A stretch of 64,000 bases of DNA from contig NC_080577.1 of NCBI RefSeq assembly GCF_029962835.1, forward strand, positions 5,952,001 to 6,016,000. Reading direction: 5' to 3'. This document shows positions 14,408 through 63,501 of this stretch, piece by piece. The translations under genes were made by a program, and so were the position numbers. This DNA comes from Magnolia sinica (Eukaryota; Streptophyta; Magnoliopsida; Magnoliales; Magnoliaceae). Position 1 is the first letter of the stretch, and the number at the start of each line of letters is the position of its first letter. A model generated the notes under the pieces. It was not told where the DNA came from, ran no database searches, and saw only the letters and a program-made list of their open reading frames with translations.

Positions 14408-16837
14408 TAGACTGGTCCCGCATGGTGCGAAGCCTTCTGGACGAGGACAACATATCACATGCACTCACGCTATGGATATGTGTATCTCATCCCATACAAA
14501 TCTGAGGCTTTTCATTGTTTTCTTAAATATAAAACTGTGGTGGAAAATCAGCTTGAGAAAAAAATTAAAATCATTCGATCTAATAAATGTGGCGAGTATA
14601 CATCTGAAACGTTTAAATCATATTGTGAAAACGTTGACATTGTTCGGCAGTACACAATGGCTTACACTCTACAACAAAATGGTGTTGCGGAGAGAATGAA
14701 TATGACACTATTAGACATGGTTAGATCGATGATGGCACAAGCCAATCTCTCTACCACATTCTAGGGAGACGCACTGTTAACAGCCGTCTACGTCCTTAAT
14801 AAAGTCTCATCCAAATCCATTCCTAAGACCTCATATGAGATGTGGTCTGGGAGGATTCCTTCTTTAGCCAACCTACGCCCTTGGGGATCTTCGGGATATG
14901 TTTTGCTGCATGCTCCGCATATAGTAAACTTGATAGTAAAACCATTGAATGCGTGTTCATAAGGTACCTTATGCATTCAAAGGGATATGTTCTAGTTTAT
15001 GAGAACCATCGACGATGGATTGATATAGAATCTCGTGACGTGACCTTTGTCGAAGATAGATACCACAGCCGAATGAAGCAAAAGATTCCAGTAGAACTCT
15101 TTGAAATACTCAATGTATCTCAGGAGAGTGAGAGTTCTGCTTCTCAAAATAATGATGCTCCTATACTTCGTCAGGACAGTGGGAGAACATCTCACCAGGC
15201 TCTTAAGTTACATCGAACCGAAAGAGGATTGATTCCCCGAAGATACTTTGATATTGAGGGGAAGACATTCTCTTGTGTTGCGGTTGATAATGATGAGTTT
15301 AATTCGTATAAGAATGCATTATTATCTTCAAAATCAGCCGATTGAGTGACTGCTATGGACGAAGAGATAGCTTCTATGGAGAAGAATAAAGTCTTGAAAC
15401 TTGTTGATCTGTCTTCCAATCACAAAGCAATAGGTAATAAGTGGATAATAAAGATCAAAAGAAAGTCAGATGGTACAGTGCACAAGTATAAAGTACGAGT
15501 AGTTGCTAAAGGTTTTACACAAAAAGAAGGTATTAATTACGAGAAAAGTTTTTCACCTGTTGCAAAGTTCTCCTCAATTCGCATGATCTTGTCCATTGTC
15601 ACAATTTTAAACTTAGAGTTATATCAGATGGATGTAAAGACCGCATTTTTAAATGGTGACTTGGATGAAGAGATATACGTGCAATAGCCCATGGGTTATG
15701 AGGACAAAAAGCATCCAAAGAAAGTCTGTAAGTTGTTGAAATCTATCTATGGGCTAAAGCAATCTTCAAGACGGTGGTACATGAAGTTCCACTTAGCCAT
15801 CACTATTTTTAGATTCACGATGAGTGAAGAAAATCATTGTGTATACATGAAACGGTCTGGAAAATCTTTTCTGATACTATCTCTATATGTAGACGATATC
15901 CTGCTAGCTAGTAATAACATGCAATTGTTGATATTGACTAAAGATTGGGTATTCTCAAACTTTGAGATGAAAGATCTCGGTGAAGCCAACTTTATTCTTG
16001 TAGTAAAAATCATCAGGGATCGCCCTAAGAAATTTTTAGGCTTGTCTTAGGCCACCTATACATAAAAGATCTTAAAGCAATTCAGGATGAAAAATTCAAA
16101 AGTTGTTGAAAACCATATGGATAAAGTTATCAAGTTAGACAGAAAATCATGTCCCCAGACTAAAGCTAAGAAATTGGCTATGTCCTCAGTAACTTATGCA
16201 AGTGCAGTAGAGACCTTAATGTATACTATGTTTTGCACCAAATCGGATATTAGCTATGCAGTTTGAATAGTTAACCGTTAGCAGAGTAACCCAGGACAGT
16301 CTCATTAGCAAGCCGTCAAACGTATATTTCACTATCTCAGAGGAACAAAGTACTTAATATTGTGTTATGAAAGCACAAGCCTCGAGCAAAGGATATTCTG
16401 ATGCTACTTGGGGTAATGACGCTGACGAGGGAAAGTCTATTTCAGGATATGTATTCTTACTCAGAGGAGGAGCCATCTCATGGTCGAGTAAGAAACAGAC
16501 ATCCATAACTCTTTCATCTATGGAGGCCAAGTACATTACATGTTGTGCTGCAGTTCAAGAGTGTGTATGGGTTCATAGATTTTTACTAGGTTTGGGTATT
16601 ATACCGAGCGTTCGTCAGCCTATATCGCTGAAGATAGACAATACTTCTGCCATTAACTTGGCGAAAGACCTTAAACACCACCAGAAGTCCAAGCACATTG
16701 AGATCAAGTATCATTACGTCCGCGATCAAGTGAGAGATAAGAAGGTCGCCCTCAGCTACATTCCTACTAAGGAGATGATGGTTGATCCCATGACGAAACC
16801 TATAACCAGAGATTTATTTCAAGTTCACTTCAGGTAG

Positions 16838-36300: not shown

Positions 36301-39300
36301 TATGCTCAGCCAAGGTCGAACAATTGTTACCGCCGTGGCCAACCAGGCTACTTATCAAACACCCGTCATCAACGTCCCGCAGCACACTTGACCATAAATG
36401 AAGGGGACACTGAGTATGAGGCCAAAGAAGAAGACTCTGGTTTTGATGAACATGAACAAGCCACTGAAGAAATAACAGATGGCGAAGAAATGACGGGTGA
36501 GGATTGTGGCGAATCTCTAATTGTGAGGCAATTACTGTATACCCCACGAAAGGAATTACATCCATAGTGACATAATATATTCCGTACTTGGTGCACTGTC
36601 AACGGAAAGGTCTATGATGTGATCATAGACAGTGGTAGTAGCGAGAACATCATCTCAAGGGTGATGGTGGACAAGTTGCAGCTACCAACGACAAAACATC
36701 CTTCCCTGTACTCAATTGGCTGGGCAAATGGTCTTCCCCATAGGTTTGCTCTCTATAGGTGAGGGTTCGATTCCTCTCCTTGGCTTTACCCGATACACGT
36801 GGTTGTGGGTGATTACGTGTATCTGCAGGAATTAGTCTCACTTCAAAATAGAGGTGGGGACACCCTGTGTCTTCAAAAAAAAAAAAGTAAACGAGACCAA
36901 GGTAACTGAGCAATGCATTATCTCGTTTTCAATTGGCAAAAATTATAAGAATCAAATACTTTGCGACGTGGTCGATATGGAAGCATGCCATATGTTACTC
37001 GGTCGACCCTGGCAGTCGGACCATGATGCGACCCATCGAGGACGAGACAATGTCTACATATTCGTTAAGAATAGTAGAAAAATAATCATTGCCCCTATGG
37101 CACCAGAGAACCACCCTGAAGCCTCTAAAGTGGAGGGGAGTTCCCTCTTGACCATTTAGGATTTCATGGAGGAATCCAAGGAAACCGGCGAAGTATACGC
37201 TGTAGTGGTGAAGGGCGAGGAATTAGAACCCTCGAACATCCCTCCAAATTTAAGACTATTGCTAAACGAATTCAAAAAAGTTCGGCCTGAAGATTTACCT
37301 AATGGATTGCCCCCTATGAGGGACATCCAACATCACATAGATCTCGTCCTTGGGGCTAGCCTGCCCAACCGCGCTCATTATCAGATGAGTACAAAGGAGT
37401 GTGAGATACTTCAAGGGCAAGTGGAGGAATTGATCTGTAAGGGTCTCTTGAGAGAGAGTATGAGCCCATGTGTCGTACCAGCATTGTTAATGCTAAAAAA
37501 AGATAGAAGCTGGTGCATGTGTGTCGATAGTCAGGCAATCAACAAAATTACTTTCAAATATCGGTTCCCAATACCACAGTTGAACGACATGCTCGATATG
37601 CTAAAAGGGGCCAAGGTGTTCTCTAAACTAGACCTAAGGAACGAGTACCATCAGATTAGTATTCAACCTGGTGGTGAGTGGAAAACGACATTCAAGACCA
37701 AGGAATGGTTGTATGAGTGGCTGGTCATGCCCTTCGGTCTATCGAATGCACTAAATACTTTTATGCGTTTGATGAATCAAGTTTTAAAACCGTTCATTGG
37801 CCGATTTGTGGTAGTATATTTTGATGACATACTGATATATAACCAGGATGAGACAGAGCACAGGAAACATCTCAAGCAGGTGTTGCAGGTCCTACAAATT
37901 AACAAGTTGTACCTCAACTTGAAAAAGTATAGTTTTTGAACGAACAGCCTGTTGTTTTTATGATTTGTTGTAACGTCCACAGGCATCCATGTGGACGATG
38001 CAAAGGTGCGAGCCATTAAGGAATGACTGATCCCGACAAACATTCATAAGGTAAGGAGTTTTCACGGGTTAACGACCTTCTATCGTCGATTCGTGCGAAA
38101 TTTTAGCACAATAGTCGCGCCTATTACAGATTGCACGGAAAAAAGACCGTTTCAGTAGACCAATGAAGCTGATAAGAGCTTTCATGAGGTCAAGCGTCGT
38201 TTGTCTCCAACACCAGTCTTAGTGCTTCCTAATTTCAACAAGCTATTTGAGGTTGAGCGTGACGCTTCATACGTCGGAATTGGAGGAGTATTATCACAGA
38301 AATATAGGCCGGTAGCCTTTTATAGTGAGAAGCTCAGCGATGCCCGAAAGAAGTAGTCGATTTATGAGCTTGAGTTGTACGCAGTTTTTTTTTTTTTGAA
38401 AGATGAGAAGATTTTATTAAGAAGAAGAGAAAAGAGAAAAATAAACGAGGAGGCTGCTGAGAAAGCAACCCTCAGGTTACACGCCCAAAAAATAGAGATC
38501 CTGACCCAACAGGTCCTTAACATTCAGAGCCCATTCAATGATGAGACGAGTAGCCGATGATGCCACGAACCCAGCTGAATTAGAAAGGTTTCTAAAGCAT
38601 CTATTGTTTCTTTCCTTCCACACAGACCACCACACTGCAAGGACCGCCATTCTCCAGATGGTTGTTTTCGTCTTACCCAAATACATCCCATGCCACGCAA
38701 GAAGAAACTGATCTGCATCCCTTGAGAAACACCAAGGTATGTTAAAAGAACTCATAAACTTAGCCCAGATGGAATGGACGAACTGACAGTGCAGTAGAAG
38801 ATGATCTACTAGCTCTCCCAATAGCATACAGTAAAGGCAAATATTTGGGATGATCATTCCTTTCTTCCTAAGGTTGTCGATGGTCAAAATTTTGTTTTTC
38901 CCTACCAGCCATCCGAACACCAGAATTTTAGGAGGGGCCTCATATTTCCATATGAAAGAGTGATTAAATTGCAACACTGATGCTTGCTTGCGCAGCTGGT
39001 TGTAGAGAGAGTGGACTGAGAAGCAGGACGATTTTTCTGGTTTCCAGTATACTTCGTCTTTTGAGGAAGTAGAAGGAGCAGAATTATAAAGGCATTCTAA
39101 CAGGCCTGTATACTTCGAAATCTCCCAGTCATGTAAGCTTCTTCTACAGCTGACATTCCAGACGATTCCCCCCAGAAGTGTGGAGGAAATCAGCAACGAA
39201 CCCATTTTCCGTCGTGATCCGATAGGAGAGGGGGAATCTAAGTTTTAATTGTTGATCTCCTATCCAATCGTCGTCCCAGAAGCGGATTTTTTTATCATTG

Positions 39301-42300
39301 CCTGCATTATCTAAGTTGTAGGCAATTGTTCAGGCGCCGCGACATTGGCAGCATTATCTGATTCAAAGAGAGTTTGTTCTATACACTGACCATCAAGCAT
39401 TAAAGTTTATTAATAGTTAGACTAACGTGAATCGTGTGCATGCTAGATGGGTTGCATTTTTATAGGAATTCACGTTCGTTCTAAAGTACAAGTTAGGGCA
39501 GCAGAACAAGGTAGCTGATGCACTTAGTTGTCGTGCATCACTACTTGTTATGATGAGCAACAAGGTGGCCGGCTTCGACTGTCTCAAGAAGCTGTATGTT
39601 GAGGACGAGGACTTCAAAGATTCTTGAATGAAGTGCCAAGAAAGTCACCCCAATGACCTTCATATATAGGACAGTTTCCTCTTCAAAGGGAATCGATTAT
39701 GCATCTCCCAAAATTATCTGAAAGAGCAGATTATTCAGGAGCTACATGGAGGTGGCCGTCTCGGTAAACACCTTGGGCGAGACAAGACGCGAGCTCTTGT
39801 GGAAGAGCGGTATTACTGGCCGTAATTGGTACGTGATGTGGGAAAAGCCATACAACGTTGTCATGTTTGTCAGACCTCCAACGGGCAATCTCAGAATACC
39901 GGCCTTTACACCCCATTACCTGCCTGACGGTCCTTGGGAGGATTTATCTATGGACTTCGTGCTTGGTCTCCCACGAACACAACACGGCATGTATTCGGTG
40001 TTCTTGGTGGTAGATCGTTTCTCTAAGATGATGCACTTTATCCCTTGCAAGAAGACCCTCGATGCAACACACGTGCGAATCTATTATTCAAAGAGGTCGT
40101 ACAGCTACACGAGGTCCCCAAGACCATTACTTCTGATCATTACACGAAGTTCATTAGCCACTTTTGGCGGACTTTGTGGACTCGATTCGATACACGACTT
40201 CAATTCAACAGCGCCTACAACTCACAGACTGATGGGCAGACCGAGGTTATAAATTGCACGTTAGGAAACCTCTTTTGTTGTATTTCAGGAGAAAAACCGA
40301 AGCAGTGAGATTTGGCCTTGTCTCAAGCAGAGTTTGCATTCAACAACATAGTGAACCGCTCGACAAGGAAATCACTGTTAAAAATTATCTACGAACGAGT
40401 GTCTCGCCACACACTTGACTTGGTCCCTCTGCCTAAGCTTCCAAGCACGAGCATTGCAGCAGAACATATGGCAGACAAGATCATGGGCATCCATGCGGAA
40501 GTGCAGACTAAACTACATGCCTCAAACAAGAAGTACAAGGAACAAGCGGACAAGCATCGGCGATAGAAAGTGTTCGAGGTGAGCGACTGCGTTATAGTCT
40601 ATCTATGCAAAGAGAGATTTTCAACCGGAACGAATAACAAGTTGAAGATTAAGAAGATTGGATCTGTCCCAATCATCCAAAAGATCAATGGCAATGCTTA
40701 TGTTGTTGATCTTCCAGATGACATGGCAATCTTACGGACTTTCAACGTCGCGGACTTAACCGAGTATCATGAACCAAAGCAGGACGAGAACTCGAGAACG
40801 AGTTCTTTTGAAGTGGAGGAGACTAATGTACTGCGGGTCGCGGATAGTTTCATGGCCAAGATGGATTAGAAAAGGCCCGGTCGATGGCAGAAGTGATCCG
40901 GACCGTCAGACCTTAGATCGGCGTATCTCACAATCCAAAATGAGTTATTAGGCGTAAAATATATGATTTTGGGGTAGAACGAGCTACTTTAGCCAACCAA
41001 CCTTGTTATGCCGGGTTGCGCAAGCCAGATTTGAGAAATACCCTTGGATCGATGGTCGTTTCCTTATTTTAATTCCGTTTTTACTATAAATAGTAAGTTT
41101 TAGTTTGATTATAACTCTTCATCCGTTGGGTTTTAGGAGTTCCGCCCAATGCGAAAAGAGCTTAGAAAAATTAGGAGAACAGCTTGGTGAAACTAAATAG
41201 GACACTATTGTTGGCCGAAAACCTTGCGCACTCGTAGACATCACGACCGTCTATAAATAGTAAGTTTACTACTTATAGTAAGTTGCGAATTCTAGGAGTT
41301 TTAGTTGTAATTTGCTTCTGATTTCTCTCCCATTGCTTGGTATCCCTATTTAAAGGGTTATGAACTCGTTTATTTCATTCATTAATCAATTTCAAATTTT
41401 ATAGAATTTATTTTCTATTTTGCTTGCTTTCTTTCTCGTGGATTCGAGAAGCCTCTGTGAGGAGTCCAGAGAAGTTCCGTGGATTCGGAACAGTTATCCT
41501 CTTGAGGGAGGTGGTGCTCGACCTCATCACGTTCATCCCTGCATCAAAATCCCATGGATGATGAATTTTTTCTTTATCCAAGTTCAATCCAAGTGTAATT
41601 TGAAAGTAAATCCTGGGATTTATTTTTTAATGCATGCATTCCAAACATGGTATTAGAAAACATGAGATACACCCAATCCAAGGACAATACCTTACACATG
41701 CATTTATTGTAACTTTTATAATTCCATCCACCTTAACCCCACCTAATGCAGTTGGCCAAACAGGCCCTTATGTTCTAAAAAATGCTTTCTTGAGGCTTGG
41801 AACAAAGCGAAACTTACTATGCTCTTTTTCCTTATTTTATAGTGATGTCTATTATCTTCTAGCTTTCTTCGTTAAAGAGATGTTTCTCTATAACAATCTT
41901 TATATGTTAATTTGTATGTTATTTCATTTACAATCTTATAATATATATTTTTAATCATTTAATTACTCATGCTATCATACAAATATCCTTAAGGTCCACT
42001 ATCCTAGGGCCCACAACATCCAACAGTCATGATTGATTAATCCAAAAACAAATTTAATTCTTTAATTTTACAAAGCTTGCATATGATGGGAGAGATCATG
42101 CGAAGGAGAGTGACATCTAGGTCAGTGACATCCTCTCCTAGCCTTCATTAACAATAAAGAAAATTGTATAATTACACCAATGCCATTGGACCCAAGTGGA
42201 CCTCATACACAAACTAGCCTAATAAGACATTAAACAGATTTCATTGGAATTTGAGGTTGAGGGCTCAAATTTATGATCTAAGCCTTTCTCTATATTTATG

Positions 42301-45300
42301 TTACATTGTGATGATTTTACCACTTTTGGCAGGGCGATTGCTGAGTATCTCTCTCATGATCTTCCATACAAGCTTTCACCCGACGATGTTTTTGTCACAG
42401 TTGGTTGCGGTCAATCGACTCATATAGCATTATCAGTCCTTGCTCGCCCTGGTGCAAATATCTTGCTCCCTAGGCCAGGATATTCATATTATGAGGCACG
42501 TGCAGCTTTCAGTGGAGTCGAGGTTCGGCATTTCAATCTCATTCCAGAGAGGAATTGGGAGGTCGATCTTGATGTTGTTGAATCCTTGGCAGATGAGAAA
42601 ACCATCGCGATGGTACTCATAAACCCTGGAAATCCTTGTGGGAATGTCTTCACTTACCAGCACTTGGCAAAGGTAAGACTTGTAAAATCTACACTCTATC
42701 TTGTCTATGAATTTTAGTTTTGAATTCATTGAAAGGATTATGGGAAATGTTCATGATCGCCGTTGTTTTGCATTTAGGTTGCTGAGACTGCAAAGAAGCT
42801 GGGAATTCTCATTATTGCTGATGAAGTTTATGGCTATTTGACATTTGGGAGCAACCCATTTGTGCCAATGGGAGTGTTTGGATCGGTTGTTCCAGTTCTA
42901 ACGCTTGGGTCAATATCCAAGAGATGGATAGTGCCCGGTTGGAGATGTGGTTGGCTTGTAACAAGCGACCCTAATGGCATCTTAAAAGAAACTAAAGTAC
43001 CCATTACTCCTTTTAACTACCTTCTCTTTATATATATATGCACACCTGACTTAGAACCATGTTTTAACTTATCTTGCTTTTCTTTTTCTTAGATTGTCGA
43101 TGGCATTAAGAACTACCTCACCATCTCTTCTAATCCTGTTACCTTTGTTCAGGTATGTGTCTTTAGATGCCTGTTTTATTGAATACTAATCTAATTCTTA
43201 TCCGGACAAATAAAGCATCTAAGACTGGATTTCTTTGTGTCCTCTAAGTTGTTAGAAGAAGTATTCCTGCTTAGCTTTAGGCTCATGCACCAACTTCTTA
43301 TAGTGCATGTCTTATATCATCAATTAGTAGATTGTGTTTCACGCATATACTAATATATAATTCATAAATAAATAATAAAAAATCTACATTAAAAAATAAA
43401 ATGAAAAAGAACATGTTGATTATATTAATAATTATACTTCATTATGAGTAGGGACCATGGTATGTTATAACGACTGTTACGGGCCCTAAAGGCCGTTACA
43501 TAAAGTTAACGGTGACAATCATTACACGTTATAGGGTTGTAAAGGTCGTGATGGGGATTACGAAAAAAATGACCTGTAAAGTCCATTACAGCCCCCATAA
43601 TGGCCCATTACTCCACCTATAAAGGTTGTAACAGCCCCATAACGGTCCATGACAGGGCCAATACAAGTTTTTTGGGTTTTGTTTTTCAATAAAAAAGAAA
43701 TAGATCATAACGGTCGTTATGGGGGATTGACTAACGTTCCAACCTGTATTATAAAAGTAACTGTGGTGGCCGTGATAGCTACTGTTATCGTTATGGAATA
43801 CCTTGGTAGGGACACTATTGGTAGTAACTCTTTGTCATGGGCAGGGACGTTAGCTGCTAATTCTTTATCTTTACTTAGACAAACAGGCTTTTTTTTCTCT
43901 TAAAACTAACCCCTAACAAAACTTAAAAGCACCATGGAACCAAGCCATATTTGCTAGAGATTTGGCTAGCCTGTGAAGATGCTAGAGATCGGAGATGAAT
44001 CTTTTAATTTTAGCTTTTAAAAAATATCTCAGAAAACTTTGTTTGACATTCTCATTGCATTTGTTAACTAGGGACCTATTTACAATTTACGTACATGTTC
44101 TCTCCTCTTCATGCCGATATTGTATTTGCTATTCCAATTTGTATGAAATTGATGGTCGGGTGAACTTTTTTTTCCAAACGGTGTTTTTCAATTTTCAGAA
44201 ACTTTAATGTGTACATGTATTATTGATGAGAGCTTTCATGCGTTAAACTGGAGATGTGATCATTTTCATTTTGTCACTTCATGTTCTTCGCATCAGAACT
44301 CTTGTGTACAGCTCGTCTTCTTCTACATATCCATCTTCATACCTGAATTTGTTTTTGGCTAAGTAACCTGACTACACATCAAGATGTATCGAGTTTTTGA
44401 ACTAAGCTATGACTAATGTGCCATTCCTCTTGTTCAAGCACTACATTACATTGTTATTTGAAGGCATTGTGCTGTGTAATTATGGTTGTGAGATTTTTAT
44501 GTCGTAGACATCTATTGCTATAAGCTTTATAGACACGGATTGCCTACAATTAAGGTGCAGCCCTTAATATGGTATAATGAAAATGGGTCATATGCGCCTA
44601 TTAGATATGGGCTCTACAATGAAAAGCAGAGATTCTCTCAGTAAAATGATATTTTTCCCTTTTCACTACGAGGCCTGCATCTGACAGGGCCACTTCAAGT
44701 GCTGCAGGAATCCAGATGTAGGCAATCCACTTTCAAGTTTTATCATGATGTCTAATATGTTAAATATATTAGGGCGCAATTCCTCAAATCCTTGGGAGTA
44801 CAGGAGAGGATTTCTTTAACAAGACCATTGATATTCTAAGGCAAGCGGCAGATATTTGTGTCGAGAGAATAAAGGAGATTGATTGTATTACTTGCCCATG
44901 CAAACCAGAGGGATCCATGTCTTTTATGGTGAGGACATAGGAAAAATTGGTGTTCTTTGCACTTGAAAATAATGAGCCTGAGGAAACTTTCTCATATTCT
45001 GCAATGCAGGTGAAGCTGGATGTGTCACGTCTGGTAGACATTTTGGATGATGTGGACTTCTGCTGCAAGCTGGCCAAAGAGGAATCGGTGCTCATTATTC
45101 CAGGTGAGTTGAGACTCAATAGCACTCATATTTTATAGTGGAGAAGAAAATTAACTTTTTCTATATAAAAAGGTAAGAGCACATGCCCTGTGACTTTGTT
45201 GATTTGATAAAACAGCTGTACAAAAATTCAGGCAGGTGCCACAAAAAGATACAGACCTCGCCTATCATATATCTTGTCCAAACAGCACTATATTATACAT

Positions 45301-58426: not shown

Positions 58427-61400
58427 CTAGTCGCAGAACAGAGTGGAGAGAAGTAGATCCTGCATGAATGTCGCTCTCACAGTAGCCTGTCTCATCTTCT
58501 GTTCCCTCTCTTCATGACTCAGTGAAGCGTCAAAACTGCAAGTGCAGAAACCAAAATGTTTAAAAAATACCTTCGGTTCTGATTATATCAACATTCGTAA
58601 CCATATGCAAGTAAGATGACTGCTTTGAATGGTTAAGAGCCGGTTCATCTATACCACAGGATTTTGTTGACAAGAAAATGATTTTTTTCTCAAATAGATT
58701 AATTTAGCAAATCTGATAATCAACTACTCAATGTTTTGAACACAAAACATCTCCAACTAGTCGAAAGCTCCTTACCAAAGTATTGCTTAGTCATGTATTC
58801 TCTGACGTTTGGGATCACAATCAACTTAAAAATTATCTAACACACAAACTCCAGCCACCTATGCATCCTATTGAAAATCTATCAGTTCCACTACCAGAAA
58901 GGAGTTAGTCGCATGCATTTGCACAAATACTGATAGAAATTAAACATATTCATCTTCAGACACACTGAAGAAAATTTACTTCCAGAATAACAAGGGGTTG
59001 TTTGGCGAGAGAGTGAAAACTGCAGAATCCCCCTGCCATAAGCTGCAGTGAAAAATATTCATCTCCGGGATAAATATTTTTTCACTGCAGTTTGCATTTT
59101 CTGATGAAGACTGCATAATTGCACATTTGCCTTTTTTGCAACCACAAACAAAAAAAGGTGCAGCCAGGAAAAAAAAAACATATATACCATGTCACTACAA
59201 ACCAAACAAACAGCCCCTAAACTAACGACTACAAATAGAGGTCTAGAACTGCAACCAACTATATATTCTTTTCATTTGAGAGTACAGATCTAAAGTTTAA
59301 TGCATGCAGATTCTCTGGCAGAACTAAGTGCGCTGAGTTACACTCCTACATAATTTTAAAACTGTACCTGCAGTATTTGATGTGCATTCTGTCTTTCAAA
59401 AAAAAAAAGTATTTGATGCGCATTTGATGCAGGACAATTAACCAATTGCTCTAAAAGCTCAAATTGTTAAAGTATGGCGAATTAATCCATTTATCTCATA
59501 GCCCAAGCCCCACATCTCATGGGTTTAGGACCTCGGCCGAACCTCCTTCGTGGGCCCCAAATCACATGGGCCACCCACCCCGAGTGTGTCCCCGCATCCC
59601 ACGGGCTACCCCGCTCGAGCCTGGTATGAAATACGCATTAATCACCCCTGGTAAGGAATCTCAAACACGAGACCTCCCTTGTGGGCCCTAAATCACATAG
59701 GTCACCCCGACCCCACTCGAATCCAATGTGAAAATGTTCTTGAATTAATCACCTTCGGTAAGGAGTCTCGAACACGGGACCTCCAGCTCTGATACCAATT
59801 TAATGCAGGACAATTAACCACTTGCTCTAAAAGCTCGAACTGTTAGAGTATGGCGAATTAATCCCTTTATCTCATAGCACAGGCCCCACATCTCATGGGT
59901 TTAGGACCTCGGCCGCACCCCCTTCGTGGGCCCCAAATCACATGGGCCGCTCACCCCAAGTGTGTCCCCGCATCCCACGGGCTACTCCACTCGAGCCCAG
60001 TGTGAAATACACATTAATCACCACTGGTGAGGAGTCTCGAACACGAGACCTCCCCCGTGGGCCCCAAATCACATGGGTCATTCACCTCGAGTGTGCCCCT
60101 GTATCCCACAGGCGACCCCACTCGAGCCCGGTGTGAAAATGCCCTTGCATTAGCATTTCCTTGAGAAGCATATACATCAATGAGGCTAAACCGAAAAGTA
60201 ATTAAGTAAGACTAGATTGTTCCCCAAATAACAAGGTCCATAACTCCTATGGCTGACAAATTGGCTTCCGAGCTGCCTTCACTTAACAGATTACAAAGCT
60301 GATGACGAAAATCTGTGAAGGTCCCAGGATCATTCCATGATCAAAGGCAAAATACATAAAAACCAAGTACCTTGATTTCCAAATATGCGGAGTTGCCACA
60401 TTCTTTGTGATAGCATCCTCAGAATTGGAAACAGCATATTTTGAAATTTCTTCTGCTTCAGATGAAGGGAAATTCAAACCAAGTTGTGAAAGCAATGAAT
60501 CAGGGACTGCATTTGATGCATTGGTGTTGCTTGAACGATATCCACTGCCACCCAAAAGCACCTGCAGATGGGCCTCACGAAGGTCTCTAGCAAGTAGAGA
60601 CAGTGCCTGACTGTTAGGAATAGCAACTCTACGTAGTCGTCGACGCCTCTGCAAGTGATCTTTAGTCAAAGGAAGAAGCAATAGGATATTAATTTCAATT
60701 CAGGCAACTGGGATGAGCATAGTTCTGAAAATTTTAGAAAAAGAACAAGCAAAAAATGCTTATTTCAAATTTCCTATGGCTATAGCTACAACCACTACAT
60801 AAAAAAGGATATCTTAAACAGGTGACCATGTTGCAGCGTAATATGATTCAGCATATCTCGTGAAACCTTAACAGAGCAAACGGGACAGACCTGCAAATAT
60901 GAAAATAGAACAAATAAATGAGAGGCATGTATCATAATTGAGTCATACCTTCTTTTATGCAAGAAATATCAAAAAGTAAAAAAACCATCAACCTAACTGC
61001 AAATTATTTTTCATCAATCTTTTATATAACTCAAGGTATAGAGAAAGAGACTGCAAAAAAGACTTGCTAAATGTACAATTCTACTTTTATAGAAACCAAA
61101 ACACTTCCTTGTGGTCAAGCTAGAACCCAAAACTGACCAGACAGGATGTTCGCATGGGCATGGTTATGAGTGTTAGAATCTGATACAATTATAGAGTGGG
61201 CAATCCAACACTCAGATGTCAACAGCCATGCACCAATGCACCTATGGTTACATCCAGTGTTCAAAGTATCGATATCGCTACAAGTTTCACTGGCCAGGGA
61301 TATGGAAACAATATCAATATCGTCGATAATATCGCTGATAACTGGAAATGTGGGGAAATATGGGGGAAAATGGTAGAATTTTTAGCGAAACTTCATGAGA

Positions 61401-62158
61401 TGTTAAAATGAACATGTTTGCATATTTAAAAATAAAAAATTTGTAAAAAGAATGCATACATAACAAGTTTCCATTTAATAGAGCCTTCAAAGCATGTGTT
61501 GTTATAAGAAATCAGTCCAACCATCCCATCCGGCCTATTTAACCATCCAACCTTCCATCCTAACATCCATCAATATTGCAAAATATCAACAACACATAAT
61601 ATTTCACCAAGAAATCATCAACAATTGGAAAGGAAATGGAAGATTGTGGTCTCAATATCGCGCATGTTACGATATCGATAATATCGAGATATTATCAATA
61701 TTATCAATGACAAATTGAACGCTACATACAACCATGAACCCATGAAAAAAAAAAGAAATTTGAAATAATTTTTTTCCTAATAAACAAAATTTTAATGGTA
61801 TCAATTCGTTAGCAATATTATTGAAATATCATCAATACACTTATGATACAAGCATTACCTAGAATTTACATAGTCGAAAATATTGATGATATATTGGCGA
61901 TATTGATGCATTGGTAATACAAGCGACAACTAGAATTTACATAGTTGAAAATATTGGCGATCACATTAGCAATATTGATACGTTGGCGATACTTAGCGAT
62001 ACATTGCTAATACCTGGAATTTTTTATACTACCAGCGTTATCGGTATCGCTACCGGTGTTATTGATATCGCTGAGCTGGAGATAAAGATATTATCGGAGA
62101 TAATTTGAACACCGGTTACATCATCTATGGACATACAAAAGGGTCAACGGAAAGATAT

Positions 62159-62203
<45 letters not shown>

Positions 62204-63501
62204 AAAGGCTTTAGAATGAAAAATCATTCCTACAATTTCCCACTGAACAAAACAAAAAAAAAGGTATCCATGCAGTATCTCCACTTTGCAAACTTCCCGT
62301 TAGCCTCAGTTCTATTTAGTTACCTCAGAAGATTTAGTGAACTTTTGTTACCCTTCAGTCTTCACCCATCGAGCCTCCAAAATACCATCCAAAACATATG
62401 TGCCACATCAACAAGGATGCTCTACAGCGGTACCATACAACATAAATGCATAAATATTTGGTAAAATAGATACCTCAAACACCCAAATGAGAACTCGGAA
62501 AGATGGTAAATAATCATCGGTTTTGCCTGCCAACACAAAGCCTCAGCGATCAACAGATCTAGGCTCAGAAAGAAACCATGTGATGGTCAGCCATTCACAT
62601 AAAAAATCACTCATGGCTTTCACGTACACACCTCTACTTGTGCAAATGTACCACCCAAATGGAACATTCTGATTGTAATGCCCTTGCAAGAAAATCAGGC
62701 AAGTCCAACGATCAGATGGACAATGGTGTATTACGCACAATGGATGGTTAAACCATCGTATGGCTGGACCCGATGGATTGTTGGGTGGTCATCTTCATGG
62801 TTTGAACCACAGGACAGACAGCTGAGATGCACTGCACGGATGCCATGTACGCACACGTAGAGGTGTGTGTGTGGAGGTAGGGTGATCGAGACATGTAGGA
62901 TTAGCAAACCTCTCTTTTCCCACACTTGTAAATGAAAAATCGCATTTCGTCAAGATACTAGCTTTATGACCAAATCAAAGGAGATAACGATGCAATTACA
63001 GATATCTGATGTTGTTCCGATCATAACATTAAAATATCCAACAAAGAATTGCTAAATTGAAAAAATCAACAGAACCCAAATGATAAACAATGATTTTGCA
63101 TCATTTGAAGAAAAGGAAAGAGGATTTTATTTATTTATTTATTTATTTTACTCACTGTGGCTTTGGATTCGGAAGGATGTTCCTCTTCGAGATGCGAGCA
63201 TAGAGAGGCGATGTCATAGTCTTCGTAGCAATAAGGGCAGGGGAGATCAGGCCGAGCCTCCTCTTCGACTTCAAAATCATCGATGCACAACCGATCTACG
63301 AACAAAATCAGACGAAAAAATCATCAGAAATGGGGAAAAGATCGGATTTTTGAAGATATCAGATGGACTTTCAAACCCTAGAAACCCTAACAGCAATGAA
63401 AAGGGGGGAGGAGAAGAACCTAAATGGGAGTTTTGGTGGTGCTGCAGCGAGTACTGCCGTTTTGCAGCAGCGAGGCGGGAATTCCAGAGATCAGAATCCA
63501 T
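58427..63501 (-). CDS. Di19 zinc-binding protein (5 coding exons)
   Basis: The product is a 230-aa member of the dehydration-induced 19 family, nuclear proteins that act in drought, salt and ABA responses and are known CPK substrates. Coding exons in order are 63420-63501, 63156-63295, 60813-60890, 60371-60654 and 58427-58535. The N-terminus reads MDSDLWNSRLAAAKRQYS. Two atypical Cys2/His2 units follow: CPYCYEDYDIASLCSHLEEEH (about residue 46) and CPVCSVKVSRDMLNHITLQH (about 76). Next is a basic RRRRLRRVAIPNS that may serve as a nuclear signal, then the Di19 C-terminal region with LREAHLQVLLGG, ending near MQDLLLSTLFCD. The frame closes without a stop, provided intron 3 is spliced as AT-AC. 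Intron 2 holds a MULE-like element and intron 4 a TRIM element. It converges with the reticulon gene. Confidence 0.92.
59425..60146 (-). mobile_element. TRIM element in Di19 intron 4
   Basis: Two direct repeats of about 320-346 bp (59425-59741 and 59801-60146) enclose only about 60 bp. That spacer contains, on the minus strand, the tRNA-Met primer site TGGTATCAGAGC (59786-59797) next to the 5' LTR. A candidate 5-bp duplication, GCATT, lies at 59420-59424 and 60147-60151, but the exact ends are uncertain. This is the layout of a terminal-repeat retrotransposon in miniature, which has no coding capacity. It lies in the same orientation as the gene. Confidence 0.75.
60655..60812 (-). other. U12-type AT-AC intron (Di19 intron 3)
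   Basis: On the minus strand the intron begins ATATCCTTTT, the U12 AT-AC donor consensus, and ends GATCAC. A branch-site-like TTCCTTTGAC lies upstream, its A 11 nt from the end of the intron. No GT donor at that exon end keeps the conserved HGHLFKLQRRRRLRR, which the AT-AC junction restores exactly. It would be removed by the minor spliceosome. Confidence 0.8.
61255..62113. mobile_element. MULE-like element built of GATATCG-type repeats, in Di19 intron 2
   Basis: It is flanked by a perfect 9-bp duplication, GGTTACATC (61246-61254 and 62114-62122). The tips CAGTGTTCAAAG and, inverted, GGTGTTCAAATTATC are short inverted repeats. Toward both ends the element is packed with CGATATCG, GATATTG and CAATATC-like words in both orientations. 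It has no coding potential. The size of the duplication points to Mutator-type transposition. Confidence 0.8.
62163..62200. repeat. (GA)n microsatellite
   Basis: About 19 GA dinucleotides in Di19 intron 2, just outside the MULE-like element. Confidence 0.85.

Follow-up and report, generated by a model that had tools for sequence, protein, structure and literature searches.

A probable U12-type AT-AC intron in a Di19 gene of Magnolia sinica

The window, by which we mean the whole 64,000-nucleotide stretch of Magnolia sinica DNA that was analyzed, carries an intact Di19 gene on its minus strand. Exon joining indicated five coding exons that form a single open frame of 693 nt, encoding 230 amino acids and a stop. 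Pfam analysis of the predicted 230-aa protein detected both zf-Di19 (residues 44–96, 83.1 bits against a cut-off of 27.5) and Di19_C (residues 118–227, 101.8 bits against a cut-off of 29). The joint presence of the two domains places the protein in the Di19 family, and the gene identity given in a preliminary description of this DNA is thereby borne out. A nine-species comparison gives five exons for the majority of Di19 genes (PMC11169598), and Di19 genes are reported to have four introns in Brachypodium and one to four in barley (PMC12109150). The features of the gene are as follows.

63420..63501, minus strand: Di19 exon 1 (coding part), with the ATG start at 63501; joins into the open 693-nt coding sequence
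63296..63419, minus strand: intron 1, GT-AG, 124 nt, phase 1
63156..63295, minus strand: Di19 exon 2, first part of zf-Di19 (exon joining and Pfam)
60891..63155, minus strand: intron 2, GT-AG, 2265 nt, phase 0
60813..60890, minus strand: Di19 exon 3 (VCPVCSVKVSRDMLNHITLQHGHLFK), end of zf-Di19 (exon joining and Pfam)
60655..60812, minus strand: intron 3, AT-AC, probably U12-type, 158 nt, phase 0 (motifs and junction enumeration)
60804..60812, minus strand: putative U12-type 5' splice site ATATCCTTT, 9/9 against the U12 consensus
60665..60673, minus strand: branch-site candidate TCCTTTGAC, 7/9 against TTCCTTRAY, with its A at 60666
60649..60654, minus strand: TTGCAG, the start of exon 4, coding for LQ; its AG, 6 nt past the AC, is the rival AT-AG acceptor
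60371..60654, minus strand: Di19 exon 4 (LQRRRRLRRVAIPNSQ...), start of Di19_C (exon joining and Pfam)
58536..60370, minus strand: intron 4, GT-AG, 1835 nt, phase 2
58427..58535, minus strand: Di19 exon 5, with the stop TAG and the end of Di19_C (ATFMQDLLLSTLFCD) (exon joining and Pfam)

Two of the GT-AG introns contain repeats. Intron 4 harbors two direct 291-nt copies (59414–59704 and 59790–60080) that are 90% alike and 376 nt apart, together with shorter related pieces at 59541–60152; the 291-nt copies resemble a mobile or repeat element that has been duplicated. A (GA)19 simple repeat lies in intron 2 at 62163–62200, with a 21-nt tandem repeat nearby (62029–62072).

Intron 3 starts with ATATCCTTTTTT and ends with TTCCTTTGACTAAAGATCAC, the A of AT being at 60812 and the C of AC at 60655 on the minus strand. 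The preliminary description had placed the intron at exactly 60655..60812 and had reported an AT start, an AC end and a branch-like site whose A lies 11 nt from the acceptor; both statements were confirmed. The U12 donor consensus is (A/G)TATCCTTT, and the U12 branch consensus is TTCCTTRAY. Scored against these consensus sequences, the donor of intron 3 matches at 9/9 positions and the candidate branch site at 7/9. The branch match is imperfect, in that the full TTCCTT run is present and stands one base too far upstream of A60666. The distance of this candidate branch A from the end of the intron is 11 nt, which falls inside the optimum of 11–13 nt that a review gives for the branch-to-acceptor distance of U12-type introns (PMC3584512). 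Pyrimidines make up 65% of the 20 nt before the acceptor of intron 3, versus 70–75% in the other three introns of the gene; it is not clear from these values that a polypyrimidine tract is missing. A second U12-like donor, ATATCCTAT, matching at 8/9, lies inside intron 3 at 60681–60689 on the minus strand, 34 nt before the intron end.

Considered across the whole window, the U12 motifs alone are near chance, and it is their placement at the junction that constitutes strong evidence. The exact sequence ATATCCTTT occurs in 2 copies on both strands of the window against 1.36 expected, with at least 2 copies in 40/100 shuffles, and 38/200 simulated 64-kb strands combined, within 300 nt, a donor with a branch site of at least 7/9 and an AC. 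Motif counts by themselves were rejected as proof of a U12 intron, since ATATCCTTT is at chance level across the window. For the other exact copy, at 16396 on the minus strand, no combination of branch site and AC lies within 300 nt. This copy sits opposite an open frame at 16358–16834 on the plus strand, which we take to be a copia-like RNase H or copia polymerase and in which Pfam found no families. At the junction itself, the probability of an exact donor by chance (45 starts) is about 0.0004 and that of a branch site plus AC (50 starts) is 0.061. The joint chance, computed before requiring an open frame or family residues, is about 2.5e-5 with the 9/9 donor and about 6.5e-4 if an 8/9 donor is allowed.

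Enumeration of splice junctions in the region yielded 4402 pairs that are in frame and open. Exactly one of the 4402, a pair that begins with AT and finishes with AC, keeps the conserved block HGHLFKLQRRRRLRR, which agrees with the earlier statement that no other junction does so; this comparison presumes that the conserved block is real. Restricting the set to the usual terminal dinucleotides and to introns of 60 nt or more leaves 104 in-frame open pairs (33 AT-AC, 32 AT-AG, 24 GT-AG and 15 GC-AG), and within it none of the 39 GT-AG or GC-AG pairs keeps HGHLFKLQRRRRLRR. An ordinary GT-AG intron of the U2 type with shifted ends, in which the AT-AC look would be accidental, is another reading. 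The 24 GT-AG pairs all preserve an open frame, but 0/24 keep the conserved block: joining GT 60826 to AG 60660 replaces GHLFK with DH, and joining GT 60798 to AG 60647 replaces LQR with ISFFM. Moreover, no GT-AG pair explains a 9/9 U12 donor at the exact junction, and we regard such an intron as highly improbable. Gene finders that assume GT-AG would be expected to mis-annotate this Di19 gene, either leaving out LQ or cutting the protein short behind the zinc fingers.

The residues at the junction are further supported by a solved structure. PDB chain 9qt9_C, named 'Protein DEHYDRATION-INDUCED 19', matches the predicted Di19 protein with an E value of 2.2e-32, and the alignment is ungapped through HGSLFKLQRKRK / FKLQRKRK, with 15/24 residues identical around the junction. 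The chain is probably from Arabidopsis, judging from its name and from PMC7618180. It is the one relative found to span the intron 3 junction, a second not having been found. The LQ of the AT-AC junction is thus backed by a DI19 chain, and because 9qt9_C retains LQ, the AC acceptor is favored over the AG six bases on.

That AG acceptor defines the closest alternative, in which the same U12-type donor is joined to an AG six bases further on, giving an AT-AG intron (60812–60649) and the protein sequence HGHLFK/RRRRLRR without LQ, which could be either the predominant form or a minor isoform arising from a tandem acceptor. The variant is in frame and open, with the acceptor ACTTGCAG/AG, and its Di19_C score is slightly higher (102.6 versus 101.8 bits). 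Pfam scores were nonetheless rejected as a test of AC versus AG, because the junction falls between the two models: the zf-Di19 match stops at residue 96, and Di19_C begins at 118, or at 116 in the variant without LQ. By contrast, LQ is retained at the matching place in 9qt9_C, and an intron ending with the AG at 60649 would have its end 17 nt from branch A 60666, outside the 11–13 nt range. AT-AG is also called disfavored in the review cited above (PMC3584512). Taken together, we consider the AT-AG form unlikely. The AC and AG acceptors stand six bases apart in AC/TTGCAG/AGG (60649–60656, minus strand), and this pair could possibly be a tandem acceptor that gives a two-residue LQ difference.

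An intron with AT-AC ends might also be removed by the major (U2) spliceosome. AT-AC introns that are spliced in this way occur in sodium channel genes (PMC2831892), and the U12-type intron of fly Kcmf1-a is reported to be still partly spliced when the minor spliceosome is disrupted (PMC7644725). However, the sodium channel AT-AC introns have G at +5, whereas intron 3 of Di19 has C at +5 of its donor, together with a U12 donor and close branch spacing, and removal by the major spliceosome therefore appears very improbable for this intron. Since gene identity, donor, branch site, spacing, ends and the unique junction agree, intron 3 of the intact Di19 gene is most probably a U12-type (minor) AT-AC intron, to which we assign a probability of about 0.94 on sequence and family evidence. 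The assignment is further supported by the published treatment of Arabidopsis Di19-2 as a gene with a U12 intron. The preliminary description had called AT-AC introns rare, a fair statement given that U12-type introns are reported to be < 0.5% of introns (PMC3584512) and that the AT-AC share of U12-type introns is put at 26% in Arabidopsis and 22% in rice (PMC7367187).

Arabidopsis Di19-2 or Di19 is treated as a U12-intron gene in three papers (PMC3422263, PMC4892727, PMC5853960). Splicing of Di19-2 is described as defective in u11-48k plants (PMC4892727), and Di19 is listed among the genes needing U11/U12-31K (PMC3422263); Di19-2 is also described as 'not significantly altered' in 31k knockdowns (PMC5853960). 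The published data on the sensitivity of Di19-2 to loss of the minor spliceosome are therefore in conflict. The Arabidopsis gene belongs to the same family as Magnolia Di19 and is U12-type by published treatment. Its exon number is reported to differ from five (PMC11169598), whereas the Magnolia gene has five exons, and for this reason the AtDi19-2 U12 intron need not equal Magnolia intron 3. A conserved U12 intron described in plant CBP20, a different gene from Di19, splits that gene into two parts as intron 3 does here (PMC5932401), and minor introns in plants are treated in PMC10639083. No statement of the AT-AC subtype for any Di19 intron was found in the literature searched (subscription papers and databases being outside its scope), and both AT-AC occurrences seen in PMC4892727 stand in reference titles; literature on the U12 intron of At1g02750 was likewise not found in this search. 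Intron 3 of Di19 is not new in kind: its biology is mostly known and largely expected, with Arabidopsis Di19-2 serving as a U12-intron test gene.

In minor splicing, U11 recognizes the donor and U12 the branch site, and U6atac then takes over the donor. Applied to the present intron, the U11 snRNP would recognize ATATCCTTT, U12 snRNA would pair around TCCTTTGAC, A60666 would serve as branch point, and U6atac would then take the donor; we infer that the minor spliceosome acts on intron 3 in vivo in this manner. Splicing would join ...HLFK/LQRRRR..., linking the zinc-finger half of the protein (zf-Di19) to its C-terminal half (Di19_C). When intron 3 is retained, the reading frame closes after residue 105 (...HGHLFKISFFM) at a stop that lies 424 nt ahead of the final exon junction; the predicted product retains zf-Di19, and Pfam finds no Di19_C in it. 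Following the usual rule on stops before the last exon junction, the retained-intron mRNA would be decayed. Failed splicing may thus yield either a decay-prone mRNA or a zinc-finger-only product that lacks the C-terminal end. The end that would be lost appears to match the published KCMF1 pin that enters UBR4. Mutation of this pin in human KCMF1 (L318/F319/V320) is reported to give monomeric UBR4, and these three residues align with TFM of Di19 exon 5 in a C-terminal match of 6.1 bits that is not significant alone.

The comparison with KCMF1 extends to the intron. Among plant proteins, DI19 has been put forward as the leading candidate for a KCMF1 orthologue; it differs from animal KCMF1 in being without the ZZ domain (PMC7618180). 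KCMF1 in human and its fly counterpart CG11984 are tabulated with an AT-AC intron, number 3 of a total of 6 (the species of the intron count not being stated), that is U12 in both species (PMC2831892, Table 2), and this intron and Di19 intron 3 are of the same AT-AC U12 subtype. The match of KCMF1 to the predicted Di19 protein is weak, with a best E value of 0.00016 that rests on the zinc-finger part; the alignment breaks off at query residue 104 and sets NHIT against NHVT, leaving the register at the junction uncertain. It is conceivable, at somewhat less than even odds in our judgment, that the Di19 AT-AC intron and the KCMF1 AT-AC U12 intron descend from a single ancestral intron located where the shared zf-Di19 unit ends, with this rare subtype kept since before the plant–animal split. 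Common ancestry would follow if the KCMF1 intron is a phase 0 intron directly behind the zinc-finger unit.

Two circumstances could have caused such a shared intron to be overlooked. The proposal that DI19 and KCMF1 are orthologues dates from a 2025 paper, in which the plant orthologue is described as 'elusive', and U12DB followed no more than two human–Arabidopsis U12 pairs, EXOSC5 and BRCC3, against twenty in another analysis. The main text of a 2008 paper on shared U12 positions contains no mention of Di19 or KCMF1 (PMC2426677). Pattern searches for further relatives gave 27 matches among viral contigs for the Di19 protein, 7 among viral contigs for the KCMF1 stretch and 486 among genome contigs for the Di19 junction region, and none of these matches encoded a relative. 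What is new here is that plant Di19 shares the AT-AC subtype with animal KCMF1, its recently proposed orthologue. If the intron positions match, the AT-AC intron would be an ancient feature of a ubiquitin ligase subunit that is itself conserved; the minor spliceosome would gate that UBR4/BIG subunit in both kingdoms, and plants, flies and human cells could then be used to test whether minor splicing tunes the complex.

For fly CG11984 (KCMF1), 4/9 probes were up and none were down when a mutant of the U12-type spliceosome was assayed at the third-instar larval stage (PMC2952598, Table 1). The preliminary description had suggested that minor-spliceosome efficiency could limit the output of the Di19 gene; the published results on Arabidopsis Di19-2 and fly KCMF1 do not favor a simple rate limitation of this putative kind.

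Rfam gave no matches at the gathering threshold anywhere in the window. Outside the Di19 gene, the Pfam scan of open frames, which covered 10 of the 30 long frames listed, detected a retroviral polymerase SH3-like domain at 14839–15342 (plus strand, 37.6 bits) and, as a second retroelement piece, a reverse transcriptase domain, RVT_1, at 37160–37936 (plus strand, 95.3 bits). A partial aminotransferase class I/II domain lies at 42277–42714 (plus strand, 70 bits) and is perhaps an exon of another plant gene.
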